The notes under the pieces: generated by a model | Databases searched by the model: none | The model's input: only the letters and a program-made list of their open reading frames with translations | Told to the model about the DNA's origin: nothing | In this document: positions 49,178 to 57,498 of the stretch, one piece after another | Position numbering within the stretch: position 1 is the first letter of the stretch | How the letters are laid out: each line of letters opens with the position of its first letter | Program-made: the position numbers and the translations under genes | NCBI RefSeq assembly: GCF_030605225.1 | Contig: NZ_JAUWAV010000005.1 | Span: 1 to 64,000 of the forward strand | Source: Geoalkalibacter sp. | GTDB taxonomy: Bacteria; Desulfobacterota; Desulfuromonadia; Desulfuromonadales; Geoalkalibacteraceae | Reading direction: 5' to 3' | Length of the DNA stretch: 64,000 bases

Positions 49178-50611
49178 ATGATTTCCAAGACAGCCATCGA
49201 TCATCTGGCGGAAAAGCTCGGCCGCGACAACGTTCTCCACGAAAAGGAGGATCTGCTCACCCTGGGCTATGATTCAACCCCCGGTGTGCACCATCTGCCC
49301 GAGGTGGTGGCCTATCCGACCACGACGGAGCAGCTGATCGCCGCCATGGAGATCGCCGAGCGCGAGGGACTGCCGCTGACGCCGCGCGGTTCGGGCACGG
49401 GGCTTTCGGGAGGCAGCGTGCCGGTCAAGGGCGGCATGGTGCTGTGCCTGACGCGCATGAACCGCATTCTTGAAATCGACGAGGAAAACCTCACCGCCAC
49501 CGCCGAAGCCGGGGTCGTCACCCTGGATCTGTTCAACGCGGTGGCGGCCAAGGGGCTGTTCTATCCCCCCGATCCGGGCTCGCAGAAAATCTCCACCCTG
49601 GGCGGCAACGTCGCCGAGAACGCCGGCGGCCTGCGCGGCCTCAAGTACGGCGTGACGCGCGACTACGTCATGGGCCTCAAGGGGGTGCTGGCCGATCGCA
49701 GCCTCATCGCCACCGGCGGCAAGAGCGTCAAGGACGTGGCGGGTTACGGCTTCAAGGATCTGCTGGTGGGCAGCGAGGGAACGCTGGGCATCATCACCGA
49801 GATCACTGTCAAGCTGATCCCGCCGCCGCAGGACAAGCGCACCATCCTTGCCTACTTCAACGACGTGCGCACCGCCGGCGAGGCGGTGTCGCGCATCATC
49901 GCCGCCAAGATCATCCCCTCGACCATGGAGATCATGGATCGGGCCACCATCAACTGCGTGGAGGATTACGTCAACATCGGCCTGCCGCGCGAGATGGCGG
50001 CGCTCTTGCTCATCGAGGTCGACGGCCATCCGTCGCCCGTGGCCGAGGAAGCCGAGGGCGTGCGCAAAATCCTCGAACAGGTCAAGGCCGCCGAGGTCCA
50101 CGTGGCGCGCGACGCCGCCCATGCCTCAAGCCTCGCCGCGGCGCGGCGCACGGCCCTCTCGGCCCTGGCGCGGGTGTCGCCCACCACCCTGCTCGAGGAT
50201 GCCACGGTGCCGCGCTCGCGCCTTGCCGAAACCTTCGACGATATCGAACGGCTCAAGGCAAAATATCAGCTCAAGGTCGGCACCTTCGGCCATGCCGGCG
50301 ACGGCAACCTGCATCCCACGGTGCTCTGCGACGAGCGCGATCAGGACGAGATGGCGCGCGCCCACGCCTTCTACCATGACCTCTACGAGCAGGTGCTTGC
50401 CTGGGGCGGCACGGTGTCCGGCGAGCACGGCATCGGGTTGGCCAAGAAGGAATATCTCGCCCGCCAGATCGGTCCGGGCGGCGTGCAGGTGATGAAGCGC
50501 ATCAAGCAGACCTTCGACCCCGAGGGTATTCTCAACCCCGGCAAGATCTTCGACGAAGGCGATCCCTGCACCCACAGCCACGTGGAGGAGGGTTTCCGTG
50601 TCTCGCACTGA
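49178..50611 (+). CDS. FAD-binding D-2-hydroxyacid oxidase subunit (GlcD/D-lactate dehydrogenase type)
   Basis: A 477-residue VAO-family flavoprotein. FAD domain at about 40-215 (PEVVAYPTTTEQLIAAMEIAE, TPRGSGTGLSGGSVPVKGG, PPDPGSQKISTLGGNVAENAGG). C-terminal domain includes KVGTFGHAGDGNLHPT and ends SGEHGIGLAKKEYL...IKQTFDPEGILNPGKIF. It oxidises glycolate or D-lactate; the family cannot separate them. No GlcE is present. It overlaps the Fe-S subunit gene by 14 bases. Confidence 0.93.
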   Translation: MISKTAIDHLAEKLGRDNVLHEKEDLLTLGYDSTPGVHHLPEVVAYPTTTEQLIAAMEIAEREGLPLTPRGSGTGLSGGSVPVKGGMVLCLTRMNRILEIDEENLTATAEAGVVTLDLFNAVAAKGLFYPPDPGSQKISTLGGNVAENAGGLRGLKYGVTRDYVMGLKGVLADRSLIATGGKSVKDVAGYGFKDLLVGSEGTLGIITEITVKLIPPPQDKRTILAYFNDVRTAGEAVSRIIAAKIIPSTMEIMDRATINCVEDYVNIGLPREMAALLLIEVDGHPSPVAEEAEGVRKILEQVKAAEVHVARDAAHASSLAAARRTALSALARVSPTTLLEDATVPRSRLAETFDDIERLKAKYQLKVGTFGHAGDGNLHPTVLCDERDQDEMARAHAFYHDLYEQVLAWGGTVSGEHGIGLAKKEYLARQIGPGGVQVMKRIKQTFDPEGILNPGKIFDEGDPCTHSHVEEGFRVSH

Positions 50612-51902
50612 ACCGCTGGGCAACTTCAAGCCGCAGGACGCGCCCCCTTACGACGATGTTCTGCAATGCATGCGCTGCGGTTTTTGTCTGCCGACCTGCC
50701 CGACCTATGCCCTGACCGGTCGCGAGCGCTCCAGCCCGCGCGGGCGGGTGGCCCTGGCGCGCGCCGTGGCCGAGAAAAAGCTCGAATTCACCCCGGCCAT
50801 CAAGGAGGAGGCGTTTTTCTGCCTGGATTGCCGTGCCTGCACCAGCGCCTGCCCCTCGGGGGTGCGCGCCGGTGAAGTGATGGAGATGTGTCGCAGCCAG
50901 GCCCATGAATTCTATCCCCTGGGCAAGGTGGGCAAGGCCTTTCGCGAATTCATTTTGCAGAAAATGGTGCCCTCGCCTGGGTTGATGGAAGCCTCCATGC
51001 TGCCGACGCGTTTGTATCAGCGGCTCGGCATTCAATGGCTGGTGCGCCATTCCAAGGTGCTCAAGCTGGGCCCCGAATGGATGCAAAAAGCCGAAGGCAT
51101 GCTGCCGCGCCTGGAAAAGCCCTTGCGTCCGCAGCTGCCCGCGGTGGTCGCGGCCCAGGGAGAAAAGCGCGGACGCGTCGGCTTTTTCCTCGGCTGCGTG
51201 ATGACGCTGATGTATCCCAATGTGTCGCGCAATACGGTGCGCGTGCTCTCCCACCAGGGATTTGAGGTGGTCACGCCCAAGGCGGCCAAATGCTGCGGCG
51301 CACCGCACCTCTCCGAGGGGGATCGCGAAACCGCGCGGCAACTGGCGCTGTTCAATCTCGATCTGTTTCTCGCCGAGGATGTGGATTACATCGTCACGGA
51401 TTGCGCAGGCTGCGGCGCCGCCCTCAAGGAATACGAGGAACTGCTCGAAGAGCGCGCCGCGCACGAAAAACTGGCGCGCTTTCGCGCCAAGATTCGCGAC
51501 ATCTCGGAGTTTCTCGCCGAGGTCGGCCTGCGCGCCGAGGGCTTGCGCGAAGTGCGCGCCCGCGTCACCTACCATGAGCCCTGCCATCTGTGCCATGCCC
51601 AGGGCATCAGCGCCCAGCCGCGCCAGCTCATCCGCCGGATTCCCGGCGTGGAGTTGCGCGAGATGGCAGAAGCCAGCTGGTGCTGCGGCTCGGCGGCCAC
51701 CTGGGGGCTCAAATATTCCGAGGACAGCCGCAAGGTGCTCGACCGCAAGCTGAACAACGTGAAGGCCACCGGCGCCGAGATTCTGGTCACCGCCAATCCC
51801 GGCTGTCATCTGCAACTGGCTTGGGGCGTGCGCGAAGCCGGCATGCCGCAAGAGGTGCTGCACCTCATGGAATTGCTCGGCCGCGCGCTCCCCCCTGAGT
51901 GA
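50598..51902 (+). CDS. Fe-S subunit of glycolate/D-lactate oxidase (GlcF type)
   Basis: A 434-residue protein from GTG at 50598. Two 4Fe-4S motifs: C24, C27, C30, C34 (CMRCGFCLPTC) and C75, C78, C81, C85 (CLDCRACTSAC). Two CCG domains follow, with AAKCCGAPHLSEGDRETA at about 230-247 and the second around EPCHLCHAQGIS...ASWCCGSAATWG. It passes electrons from the flavoprotein to the quinone pool or another acceptor. The last gene of the TRAP operon; a terminator follows at 51932. Confidence 0.93.
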   Translation: MSRTEPLGNFKPQDAPPYDDVLQCMRCGFCLPTCPTYALTGRERSSPRGRVALARAVAEKKLEFTPAIKEEAFFCLDCRACTSACPSGVRAGEVMEMCRSQAHEFYPLGKVGKAFREFILQKMVPSPGLMEASMLPTRLYQRLGIQWLVRHSKVLKLGPEWMQKAEGMLPRLEKPLRPQLPAVVAAQGEKRGRVGFFLGCVMTLMYPNVSRNTVRVLSHQGFEVVTPKAAKCCGAPHLSEGDRETARQLALFNLDLFLAEDVDYIVTDCAGCGAALKEYEELLEERAAHEKLARFRAKIRDISEFLAEVGLRAEGLREVRARVTYHEPCHLCHAQGISAQPRQLIRRIPGVELREMAEASWCCGSAATWGLKYSEDSRKVLDRKLNNVKATGAEILVTANPGCHLQLAWGVREAGMPQEVLHLMELLGRALPPE

Positions 51903-51967: not shown

Positions 51968-52231
51968 TCAGGACGGTTCGTCCAGTTCCAATTGTTCCCG
52001 CAGGCTCAACACGAAATTCTTGGCGCGGCCGGCCGGGGCGATGATGCCGTAGGCCATTGCCTCGCGCAGTTCCGCCGGGGTGGCGCCCTGTTCCTTCGCG
52101 ACCGCGAAGTGTTTTTTCAGTCAGTCGGGGCAGCCCACCGCCACGGCGCAGGCCACGCGGATCAGTTCGCGGGTTTTGATGTCCAGCACTTCCTCGTAGT
52201 CGAATTCAAAGACTTTCTTGCGCGTTTTCAT
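51968..52231 (-). CDS. AhpD-like (carboxymuconolactone decarboxylase family) putative selenoprotein
   Basis: An 87-residue frame interrupted by one TGA at codon 37. It starts at ATG 52231, with AAGGAGA seven bases upstream. Residues 28-41 read C-A-V-A-V-G-C34-P-D-(UGA)37-L-K-K-H41, so the UGA replaces the second cysteine of the AhpD CxxC redox pair, with the downstream histidine in place (CxxUxxxH). After the UGA the frame continues with FAVAKEQGATPAELREAMAYGI, typical of this family, to a TGA at 51970-51968. A SECIS-like hairpin follows the UGA. Related proteins are thiol peroxidases or oxidoreductases. The alternative is a broken gene; the intact frame after UGA, hairpin and ribosome site argue against that. 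Confidence 0.82.
52094..52123 (-). promoter_or_regulatory. UGA codon and bacterial SECIS-like hairpin
   Basis: Minus strand: TGA at 52123-52121, then 17 bases to the apical loop. Stem CTTCGC (52109-52104) / GCGAAG (52099-52094), loop GGTC. Bacterial SECIS elements have a short stem just after the UGA with G in the first loop positions; the GGUC loop matches that of E. coli fdhF (GGUCU), and the distance is also close. Confidence 0.75.
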
Positions 52232-52272
52232 CGGCGGTCTCCTTGGCTTGGGTCATTGTTCGCGCGGGCCCT

Positions 52273-52301: not shown

Positions 52302-52381
52302 TCAGCGATCGCAACCGCGGCGTGCCCGGCAAGTCTTGCCGAGGTCGAGTCTTTGCCGCGCCACGAAGGAGAACGCAAGCA

Positions 52382-53071
52382 ATGTTTCAGATGGAGTTGG
52401 CTCAGTTTGAACAGGCGGCGCGCGAGCGCCTGCCCGATGAGGCGCGGGTGGTAAGCGGCCGGCAGTGGGACGCGCCGCATCGCGAGCTTTGGGGGGTCGT
52501 CGCCGCGCGTACCCTGCGCCTGGCGCTCTTGCCGCATCTCGAATGCCGGGTGGCGGAACTCTGGCCGCTGCTGTTTTTCGACCGAGAACTCGCGGAGGTG
52601 GATGACCATTTGAGCGCGGGGCTGGGGTTCAGCCGCGTCAATCGTTTCTTTCTGGTGGTCGACCGGGAACGCGGCAAATGCCGGTTCGGTCCGCCCCATG
52701 GCACCCTGGCCCTGGATCGCGCCTGGCGCGGCCATGGATTGGGGAGTTATCTCCTGGCGCAGCTGATTTCCTGGGGCATCGCCCATTATCCCGGCAGCGC
52801 CGTCACCACCGAGCATTTTGATGCGCGGGCTCTCGACATCGACCGGGCCGTTCTCAACGCTTTTTGCCGCCGGGCGGGGATTGAGCTGATTTTTCATGCG
52901 CCCGACGGCGCCACCTGCTGCGCCAAGCGCATGAATCTGCTGCATCCGCACTTTGACCGGCAGCGGGTCGAGGAACAGGCTCCGGGCAATCCCGGCGACT
53001 GGTTCACCCCAATGTTTCAGGGCGCGAAAGTCGCGGAGCTGATCCGCGCGACCTGGCTGCGGGGTTTGTGA
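52382..53071 (+). CDS. GNAT-like acetyltransferase domain protein, function unknown
   Basis: A 229-residue protein. The central part FFLVVDRERGKCRFGPPHGTLALDRAWRGHGLGSYLLAQLISWGI has the RGHGLG pattern of the acetyl-CoA loop (motif A, R/Q-x-x-G-x-G/A) of GNAT acetyltransferases. The N-terminal 80 residues do not suggest a known domain. The C-terminus has paired cysteines (CCAKRM). ATG at 52382 with AAGGAG ten bases upstream; an ATG nine bases later is possible. It is divergent from the selenoprotein gene. The substrate is unknown. Confidence 0.65.
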   Translation: MFQMELAQFEQAARERLPDEARVVSGRQWDAPHRELWGVVAARTLRLALLPHLECRVAELWPLLFFDRELAEVDDHLSAGLGFSRVNRFFLVVDRERGKCRFGPPHGTLALDRAWRGHGLGSYLLAQLISWGIAHYPGSAVTTEHFDARALDIDRAVLNAFCRRAGIELIFHAPDGATCCAKRMNLLHPHFDRQRVEEQAPGNPGDWFTPMFQGAKVAELIRATWLRGL

Positions 53072-54783: not shown

Positions 54784-55632
54784 CTAGTTTCCTTCGAGAA
54801 AGCGCTCCAGGTGCTGACTGAGGGTGCGTAGATGGGCCTGCTCTTCCTCGGCGAGCAGGGCGAAGATTTCGCGGCTCTTGTTCTCCTTGAGGTGACGACG
54901 CAGCAGCAGGTAATGATCGAAGGCGTTGGCTTCCATGCCCATGGCGAATTCGATGATCACCCGCGCCGACTTGTCGCGCATCCAGTCGAGCAGTTCATCC
55001 AGGGGCAGGCCGCCTTCGACGAGGATACTCTCGTCTTCGCTCCCGAGAAACGAGCGGGGGAAGGCGGGTTGGGGAAATTCTCCGGTGAGCTCGCGATAGA
55101 CGCTGGCCAGGGAGGCCTTGTGATGTTCTTCGGTGGCGGCCATCTGGCGCATGAAATTGGCTTCGCCGAGATCCTCGAACTGTTCGGCGGCCGCGGCGTA
55201 GAAGGCGCGGCTGCCTTCCTCGAGCAGCCAGGCCAGGGCCAGATGCTCCAGGGGCGAGCGCTGCGGGGAGAACCAGGCCATCTGCGTGGCCGGATCGCCC
55301 GTGGCGGTCCCCCCCTCCCAGGCGCGGATTCCGCCGGCCATGTTGGATACCTTGGCGAAGCCGGCATTGCGTAAAATGGCGGCCGCCGCCCGCGAACGCG
55401 GACCCGCGGCGCAGTAGGTGATGGTGGTGCGCGCCGGATCCAACTCGCCCAGGCGCTCCTGGATCTGATCAAGGGGCATGAGCAGGGCGCCGGGCAGGTG
55501 TCCCTGCTGGTATTCCTTGGGTTGGCGCACATCGAGCAGATGAAACTGCTCGGGATCGTGCTCCAGCAGATAGCGACGCACCCCGTCGGCGTCAAGGCTG
55601 GGTACGGGCCGGAAAAAATCGAGAAATCCCAT
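54784..55632 (-). CDS. Rhodanese-ferritin-like (rubrerythrin-type) fusion protein
   Basis: A 282-residue fusion. Residues 1-115 form a rhodanese domain with active loop CAAGPRSRAAA (Cys at about 78). Residues 125-280 form a four-helix ferritin-like domain with carboxylate/histidine motifs: LEEGSRAFYAAAAEQF, MAATEEHHKAS, FAMGMEANAFDHYL and LLAEEEQAHLRTLSQHLE. The diiron site thus looks intact. The sulfurtransferase could pass sulfane sulfur (or selenium) and the diiron part reduce peroxide or act in iron or persulfide handling. Its ATG at 55632 follows the flavoprotein gene by 26 bases. A longer frame to 56091 is rejected. Confidence 0.88.
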   Translation of the reverse strand: MGFLDFFRPVPSLDADGVRRYLLEHDPEQFHLLDVRQPKEYQQGHLPGALLMPLDQIQERLGELDPARTTITYCAAGPRSRAAAAILRNAGFAKVSNMAGGIRAWEGGTATGDPATQMAWFSPQRSPLEHLALAWLLEEGSRAFYAAAAEQFEDLGEANFMRQMAATEEHHKASLASVYRELTGEFPQPAFPRSFLGSEDESILVEGGLPLDELLDWMRDKSARVIIEFAMGMEANAFDHYLLLRRHLKENKSREIFALLAEEEQAHLRTLSQHLERFLEGN

Positions 55633-55658
55633 GGTTGTATGCTCTCCCCCCGGCGCTT

Positions 55659-56792
55659 TCAGATGCCGGGCCTGAGGTCCTTGGCTTCCCCGCTCACCTG
55701 AAAGCGGTGCATGAAGCGGCGGTCGATCCAGTGCTTGAGATGCAGGAGGCCGCTGCCGCCGCCGGAGAAGGCGCCGCGGCGCGCGATGCCGGTCTCGTCG
55801 CCGAGATTGAGAATCAGCAGAAAGTTTTTCCGCGGCCGAAAACTGTGCAAGGGGCGCTCCTCCAGGGCCGCGAGCAGGTTGCGGCGCAATACCGGATTTT
55901 GCCGCACCGCATGCACGCCCACCCGCGGCAGGCGTGCTCCGGCCAGGCTGATGCAGTCGCCGCCGCCGAAAATCCGGGGATCGGCGATACTTTGCAGACA
56001 GTCGTTGACGAGCAGCCCCCCGTCCTCGGGATCGGCCAGACCAGCTTGGCGAAATAGCGGCGGCGGAGCGACCCCGGAGGCGAGAAAACACAGATCGCAG
56101 CTCAGGTGCGCGCCGCTTTCGAGTTTTACTTGCCCCGCTCTGAAAGCAAGCGCCCGCTCGCCCTCCCGAAGGTGGATCCCGCGTTGCGTCAAGGAGCGCC
56201 GCGCCAGATCCTGGGCCCGGATCGGCCAGCCGTCGAGCAGGCCGCCGCCCGCCACCAGCACAATGTCCGCTCGGGCCTCGCAGCTTCGGGCAAGGTGCCA
56301 GAGATTGCCGGCGATTTCCACGCCGGCCGCGCCGCCGCCGATCACCACCAGGCGCAGGGGCCGCGCGCGCCGCGCGCGAATCGCTTCGCGGGCATGATAG
56401 AGGTTTTCAATGGGTTTGACCGGCACCAGCCAAGGACCCTCTTCGGTGTCAGCGGGCAGACGGATGCCGCTGCCGATGTTGAAGGACACCACGTCATAGG
56501 CGATCTCGTTCCCCGAGTGCAGTTTGAGCAGGCGCCGCGCCGCATCGATGCCCGCGACCCGGTCCTGCACAAAAGCGCCGCCGCGCTCCTGCACCATGCG
56601 GCGGATGTGAAAACGGGTGTCGCGCGGCTCATAGGTGCCGGCCAGCAGGCCCGGTCCCATGCCCGAGTAGTAGTGATAGGCCGAGGGGCTGACCAGGGTG
56701 AGGCCATGGCCGCGCTTGACGAAATCCGCCGTTTTCGACAGGGTGGTCAGGTGGGCGTGACCGCCGCCGACCAGAACCAGGTGCTTGCCCAT
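55659..56792 (-). CDS. NDH-like/SelD-associated-type FAD oxidoreductase
   Basis: A 377-residue pyridine-nucleotide-disulfide-type flavoprotein from the ATG at 56792 (AAGGAG upstream; a start at 56837 would overlap the promoter). FAD-binding LVLVGGGHAHLTTL at 5-18, then SAYHYYSGMGPGLLAGTYEPRD, YDVVSFNIGSG, a second dinucleotide site RLVVIGGGAAGVEIAGNL, and IFGGGDCISL. The YSGMxPGxxAGxY segment resembles the NDH-like domain fused to SelD in some organisms and related sulfide-quinone or NDH-2 enzymes. It lies 26 bases before the rhodanese-ferritin gene. The electron donor is unknown. Confidence 0.85.
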   Translation of the reverse strand: MGKHLVLVGGGHAHLTTLSKTADFVKRGHGLTLVSPSAYHYYSGMGPGLLAGTYEPRDTRFHIRRMVQERGGAFVQDRVAGIDAARRLLKLHSGNEIAYDVVSFNIGSGIRLPADTEEGPWLVPVKPIENLYHAREAIRARRARPLRLVVIGGGAAGVEIAGNLWHLARSCEARADIVLVAGGGLLDGWPIRAQDLARRSLTQRGIHLREGERALAFRAGQVKLESGAHLSCDLCFLASGVAPPPLFRQAGLADPEDGGLLVNDCLQSIADPRIFGGGDCISLAGARLPRVGVHAVRQNPVLRRNLLAALEERPLHSFRPRKNFLLILNLGDETGIARRGAFSGGGSGLLHLKHWIDRRFMHRFQVSGEAKDLRPGI

Positions 56793-57290: not shown

Positions 57291-57498
57291 TGACTTGTCT
57301 CCGGGATGCCGAGGGTGCGTTGGAAATTCTCGCCCTTCAGTAGAAGGACTGGCCTCTGAACGGCGCTTCAGGCTTCCCGCTGCTTGGCGGTCCTGCTCAC
57401 CACGACGTTACGCGAGGTTTAGAGGTTCTTGGTGTCGGCGAGGGTTTCGTCGGCGCCCATCGTGCATCCCAGAGAATCAAGGATCACTTTGTCTTTCT
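57291..57498 (-). ncRNA. ssrS: 6S RNA
   Basis: Minus-strand RNA of roughly 190-205 bases that holds RNA polymerase in stationary phase by mimicking an open promoter. The closing stem is TCTCTGGGATGC (57475-57464) with GCATCCCGGAGA (57309-57298), 12 pairs with one G-U. Inner sequences typical of 6S are GGTGAGCAGGACCG, AAGCAGCGGGAAGCCTGA and GAGGCCAGTCC, close to the conserved blocks of E. coli ssrS (GGUGAGCAUGCUCGGUCCG, AGAAGCCUUA, GGCCAGUCC). A terminator-like hairpin follows. Exact ends are estimated. A 63-codon frame on this strand is a by-product. Confidence 0.88.

Follow-up and report, generated by a model that had tools for sequence, protein, structure and literature searches.

The window, by which we mean the whole 64,000-nucleotide stretch of DNA that was analysed, holds on its minus strand a frame of 88 codons, consisting of 87 residues and a TGA stop as codon 88. 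The frame starts with ATG and has its sole internal TGA at codon 37 (Table 1). Its translation is MKTRKKVFEFDYEEVLDIKTRELIRVACAVAVGCPDULKKHFAVAKEQGATPAELREAMAYGIIAPAGRAKNFVLSLREQLELDEPS, with the motif CPDU at codons 34-37. An earlier sequence-only reading of this DNA had described the same frame, start codon, single TGA and normal stop, together with a ribosome-binding site before the ATG and a hairpin that begins 11 bases past the UGA and has its GGUC loop 17 bases past it, and all of these were found where it had placed them. It had also expected ordinary ORF calling to split or miss the gene, and the 87-residue frame is indeed absent from the plain stop-to-stop ORF list of the window. Purine-rich sites were seen by eye upstream of most of 31 genes inspected.

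Table 1. Features at the locus. Alignment A1 holds 16 of 27 distinct proteins and alignment A2 holds 13 sequences.
Feature	Position	Strand	Basis
Predicted gene for a selenoprotein of 87 aa (Sec37) in the GSU3128 family, CMD/AhpD kind	51968..52231	-	Frame, family matches
In-frame TGA at codon 37, predicted selenocysteine codon and second member of the CxxU pair	52121..52123	-	TGA in 111/111 homologous loci
Cys codon 34 (CPDU), presumed to encode the resolving partner of Sec37	52130..52132	-	Invariant in alignments A1 and A2
Predicted SECIS hairpin CUUCGC-GGUC-GCGAAG, loop 52100-52103	52094..52109	-	Fold, synonymous freeze, covariation, 3/3 distant relatives read
Ribosome-binding site AAGGAG, 7 bases 5' of the ATG	52239..52244	-	Sequence

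In profile searches the protein matched the NCBIfam model NF041047, 'GSU3128 family (seleno)protein', with 158 bits over residues 1-82 (curated cut-off 110). The Pfam CMD model (PF02627; 52.5 bits, gathering cut-off 23) and the AhpD core domain model TIGR00778 (37.9 bits, cut-off 27.8) were also passed. The score for the AhpD subfamily model TIGR00777 was 14.3 bits against a cut-off of 191.95, and the protein was therefore not filed as AhpD itself; TIGR01926 also stayed below its cut-off (12.4 bits vs 81.8). From the AhpD-like identity proposed in the sequence-only reading, kinship with CMD/AhpD proteins was thus upheld by profiles and by fold, whereas the AhpD subfamily model failed. An LCM match of 12.2 bits, under its cut-off, was set aside. 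The window's own genome has a single match that exceeds the NF041047 cut-off and contains one TGA, and a second, weak match (L010, 22.5 bits) with no internal stop. The closest named locus is that of Geoalkalibacter sp. CSMAG_1185, with 90% identity.

The gene stands alone, with a plus-strand ORF on either side (50598-51902 and 52322-53071); no Pfam match was obtained for the second of these ORFs. Neighbours were counted at those 59 of 81 loci (80 named loci and the window) that had 2.5 kb on both sides. No generally conserved neighbour was found among these 59 loci, and the neighbours vary by lineage. The commonest was a same-strand gene just downstream (16/59; MatE in one scanned representative), which is absent from the window, and a GlnE gene (one representative scanned) was located upstream in 10 of the 59 loci. 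A Pfam scan of seven neighbours in the window gave no AhpC-like match. The minus strand of the window also carries a 6S RNA gene at 57294-57478 (58.6 bits) and an ORF at 54784-56091 in which a rhodanese domain (73.3 bits) precedes a rubrerythrin match of lower score (32.5 bits).

Conservation of the in-frame UGA

In the class search 136 of 277 genomes had a match above the NF041047 cut-off, and a TGA was present inside every over-cut-off match listed (136 genomes, with two matches from G133). The two G133 copies of the gene, L149 on contig C112 and L150 on contig C107, closely resemble each other, and the one located at a contig end contains a TAG in addition. Codon 37 was read in 111 loci: 30 came from the class search and 80, out of 103 relatives, from a scan of named genomes, and one was the locus of the window itself; these sets overlap and hold 93 distinct sequences. 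TGA was found at this codon in all 111 loci, mostly within CPDU (57) or CPTU (49). The peptide patterns used in the scan of named genomes avoid the Sec codon, so that Cys forms should have been equally findable, and no Cys form of the family was seen in the 111 loci. The sequence-only reading had staked its case on homologues with Cys or UGA at this position. The alignment that it proposed gave UGA throughout, and the identical UGA in many separate assemblies excludes a sequencing error in place of TGC or TGT.

A sample of the phylum yielded matches at E <= 1e-10 in 34 of 395 genomes. Sixteen of these passed the cut-off, all of them already met in the class search, and five came from outside the class, with 65.6-71.1 bits and one TGA each (L142-L146). 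The remaining 13 matches, at 44-50 bits, were without TGA. In L142, L143, L145 and L146, which are 40-45% identical, the position of the UGA is unchanged; two of these four relatives have CSHU, one has CPTU and one CAHU. The hairpin was found at the same place, with the loop GGGC or GGCC, in each of the three distant relatives whose DNA was read, and selB was above cut-off in the three distant-relative genomes tested. These four distant relatives fall below the NF041047 cut-off and may lie outside what the family model now captures.

The predicted SECIS hairpin

The RNA past the UGA folded into a hairpin with a stem of 6 bp and a GGUC loop. Its energy was not beyond chance as compared to shuffled sequences (z -0.16, -0.11 and -0.91 for three lengths), and with a bSECIS-like rule an equally stable hairpin followed 223 of the 1735 TGA trinucleotides in the window. 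Based on these two results, hairpin energy was ruled out as proof of a SECIS element. The bSECIS model, as given in excerpts of PMC13188914, has a loop of 3-9 nt, a stem of 4-16 bp, a G at loop position 1 or 2, a spacing of 16-37 nt and an energy of at most -7.5 kcal/mol. The sequence-only reading had proposed such a prediction, and the loop, stem and spacing of the window hairpin (GGUC, 6 bp, 17 nt) fit the model, whereas the energy is borderline: the bare 16 bases fail at -7.1, and only with one flanking base on each side does the hairpin pass, at -8.7. With the flanking bases it registers as 5 bp with the loop CGGUCG. The bare-hairpin rule was passed by 19 of 111 family members and by 238 of 1735 window TGAs, and the flanked-hairpin rule by 106 and 333, respectively. 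As the rule is sensitive to the choice of flanking bases, it was given little weight. A search with a pattern derived from the family matched the window solely at the gene's own site; this is no independent proof, since the pattern was built from the family.

Comparison between homologues gave a different picture from energy. The mean normalised synonymous entropy was 0.16 in the hairpin codons (+4 to +9) and 0.77 in the 56 others, with all six hairpin codons below all 56 others (Mann-Whitney p 3e-5; 93 sequences, kinship uncorrected). Pairing was kept in 98.8% of 504 cells (84 distinct sequences). Two of the six pairs covary, one from C-G to U-A in three sequences and one from U-A to C-G in three, and the covariation score was reached by none of 500 shuffles. 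The statistic for further pair types was ordinary, being reached by 125 of 500 shuffles, and a hairpin slid by +1 scored slightly higher on covariation (0.053 vs 0.050); the synonymous freeze was for these reasons taken as the stronger argument. Together the UGA codon, the synonymous freeze and the pairing raise the predicted hairpin far above chance. At the level of sequence comparison they demonstrate selection on the putative RNA signal, and the maintenance of UGA codon 37 together with a predicted SECIS hairpin beginning 11 bases past it.

The GGUC loop was present in 73 of the 93 sequences, and eight had a CUUG or CCUG loop, in which neither of the first two bases is the G of the bSECIS model. 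Homologues with a CUUG or CCUG loop include L043, L053, L113, L117, L122 and L141, and L095 from Trichlorobacter lovleyi has the same loop as L043. Two of the six stem pairs are broken in L113, L117 and L122. Some of the CUUG/CCUG-loop homologues have a broken stem and may instead rely on a hairpin at a shifted position, which would be a SECIS variant that could escape the bSECIS model.

Selenocysteine machinery

The genome of the window (3.71 Mb in 89 contigs, 99.96% complete) was searched for selA, selB, selC and selD as the sequence-only reading had suggested, and all of them were found. The genes selA, selB and selD adjoin one another on contig C21. For tRNA-Sec a model match of 75.6 bits was obtained, and ARAGORN named the same site tRNA-SeC with the anticodon tca. 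The tRNA-Sec model alone is unspecific: it also matches other tRNAs and had matches at E <= 0.001 in 14 of 14 control genomes, and the tRNA-Leu of the window's genome passes its cut-off at 48.9 bits. The tRNA-Sec assignment was therefore based on the 75.6-bit match, for which ARAGORN gives the same identity. The selD gene (L020:1480-2622) itself has an in-frame TGA at residue 18 (SRSAGUAAKIG), which we take to be the usual Sec site of SelD, and is an independent selenoprotein gene. With this machinery present, none of the three findings that the sequence-only reading had named as speaking against it was made, and the selenoprotein reading is supported.

Among the 136 gene-bearing genomes, 129 had a selA match at E <= 0.001, a few of them below the curated cut-off of selA. 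The association between the family and selA had a Fisher p of 1.2e-5, a nominal value uncorrected for relatedness and genome completeness. No selA match was found in seven of the 136 genomes (G010, G045, G106, G208, G217, G227 and G236). Despite this, a tRNA-Sec match of 75-78 bits was detected in G236, G045 and G106, and selB was above cut-off in G208. In G010, which is 59% complete, the tRNA-Sec match was 48.2 bits, which does not surpass the tRNA-Leu in the genome of the window. In the genomes G217 (96% complete) and G227 (99%) neither a selA match nor an above-cut-off selB was detected, and tRNA-Sec matches did not exceed 42 bits; selD was above cut-off in G227 and not in G217. The UGA gene and the hairpin are intact in both (L147 and L148, respectively, from one genus). 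The lack of machinery in these two genomes is probably due to gaps in metagenome-assembled genomes (MAGs), missing bins being the simplest reading, and possibly due to a recent loss of Sec decoding. As a wider proposal, which we regard as possible and still rather doubtful, the GSU3128 family may be obligately Sec-containing, with Sec never replaced by Cys in the class and its distant relatives. Its genes would then outlast a loss of the machinery for a time, as in G217 and G227, either orphaned or with the UGA decoded otherwise. If the absence of a Cys form holds more widely, this small protein would be a clean test case for selenium retention.

Fold, proposed role and known relatives

The AlphaFold model, for which an alignment of 13 chosen sequences with Cys in place of Sec was used as input, had a mean pLDDT of 92.9. 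Its top PDB match was RclX (7y4r_E; TM 0.76, rmsd 1.1, E 1.4e-3), followed by 3bey_C (TM 0.68, rmsd 1.0), and no PDB match at E 0.001 or better was obtained in the structure search. The Mycobacterium tuberculosis AhpD (1gu9) ranked lower, with a TM of 0.5-0.6 by query and E of at least 0.7. The same two structures, 7y4r and 3bey, led a sequence-profile search. According to excerpts of PMC3141380, the proton relay of AhpD consists of Glu118, Cys130, His132, Cys133 and His137. E22, C34, D36, U37 and H41 of the window protein are spaced like these residues; four of the five relay positions are preserved, the second Cys being replaced by Sec, and D36 is found where AhpD has His132. The in-frame TGA thus takes the place of the second Cys of the AhpD CxxC pair, as had been said from the sequence, with U37 spaced as Cys133. 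E22, C34, U37 and H41 did not vary among 13 sequences with identities as low as 40%.

The explanation that we hold to be best, and consider highly probable, is that a single gene here encodes a functional selenoprotein of the GSU3128 family (NF041047), in which UGA37 is kept with a SECIS element, selenocysteine would be inserted and the product would act as a redox adaptor or weak peroxidase of the CMD/AhpD type. By established bacterial biology, SelB with Sec-tRNA would bind the hairpin and insert selenocysteine at UGA 37, which would give the 87-residue protein rather than a 36-residue stub. The fold and the conserved residues suggest that the helical CMD/AhpD-type protein does thiol/selenol redox chemistry. 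Sec37, in the place of AhpD Cys133, would be the attacking selenolate and Cys34 the resolving thiol, with Glu22 and His41 in a proton relay. From the model and the sequence we infer that it may act on a putative partner as a thiol/selenol redox adaptor or weak peroxidase. Literature searches found no functional study of the GSU3128 family and no assay of its redox function.

A normal Cys codon (TGC or TGT) that was point-mutated in an otherwise ordinary AhpD-like gene, by decay to a pseudogene or by sequencing error, would give the same frame, as TGA is one base away from both codons, and a small stand-alone gene could decay unnoticed. This reading is already refuted by the same TGA in 111 of 111 loci and also has against it the four of four distant relatives read from outside the class and the synonymous freeze adjoining the TGA; we give it practically no credence. 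It is also very improbable that the UGA is decoded as another residue, or by plain readthrough, instead of as selenocysteine. Such decoding would agree with G217 and G227, which keep an open gene and the hairpin without selA, selB over cut-off or a convincing tRNA-Sec. However, both are apparently MAGs, in which bins are often missing. The complete Sec machinery is present in the genome of the window, and selA was matched in nearly all gene-bearing genomes (129/136).

The protein could also be a selenoprotein with the CMD fold that serves as a redox protein for another substrate, and not as an AhpD-type adaptor or peroxidase. The failed TIGR00777 model, the closest folds being RclX and 3bey and not AhpD, and the neighbourhoods, which differ between lineages and in the window include no AhpC-like match among seven genes, are in line with this. 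Against it, the AhpD spacing of Glu, Cys, Sec and His is preserved, and two distant UGA relatives have CSHU, which is the CSHC of AhpD with Sec last. We consider another substrate unlikely.

The preferred reading, a functional GSU3128 selenoprotein, has precedents in the literature. Excerpts of the 2026 review PMC13188914 include a 'Distant alkylhydroperoxidase (AhpD) homolog, NF041047, CxxU' in the selenoprotein table, and those of PMC9312934 a distant AhpD homolog entry with COG0599, CxxU and AAR36519.2. For G. sulfurreducens and G. uraniumreducens, excerpts of PMC1794560 name a 'distant AhpD homolog' as one of the selenoproteins, and reviews credit the GSU3128 family to Kryukov and Gladyshev 2004. 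The gene is a correct rediscovery of this published family and is not new, and the biological news is small since the family was already described. The result confirms that reading raw sequence can uncover a genuine selenoprotein gene which is fragmented in a plain stop-to-stop ORF list.

In comparison to AhpD of M. tuberculosis and the AhpD-like PA0269, the window protein has the same spacing of Glu, Cys, Cys/Sec and His and a weak fold match to 1gu9, but it is a single domain of 87 residues with Sec for the second Cys and Asp for His132. The predicted hairpin resembles the consensus bacterial SECIS in being a stem-loop directly past the UGA with a GGUC loop and 17-nt spacing, and differs from it in its short stem of six base pairs and in having no bulged U in the predicted stem. 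The SECIS of E. coli fdhF has a bulged U. The AhpD-like (COG2128/TIGR01926) and CMD-like (PF02627) selenoproteins from marine metagenomes are likewise of the AhpD/CMD type with CxxU, but appear as separate families in excerpts of PMC13188914. The likeness to the GSU3128 family NF041047 extends to a whole-length equivalog match, the same CxxU motif and reports of the family from Geobacter species, which belong to the same bacterial group; no substantive difference was found, and the window protein is one more member of this family.
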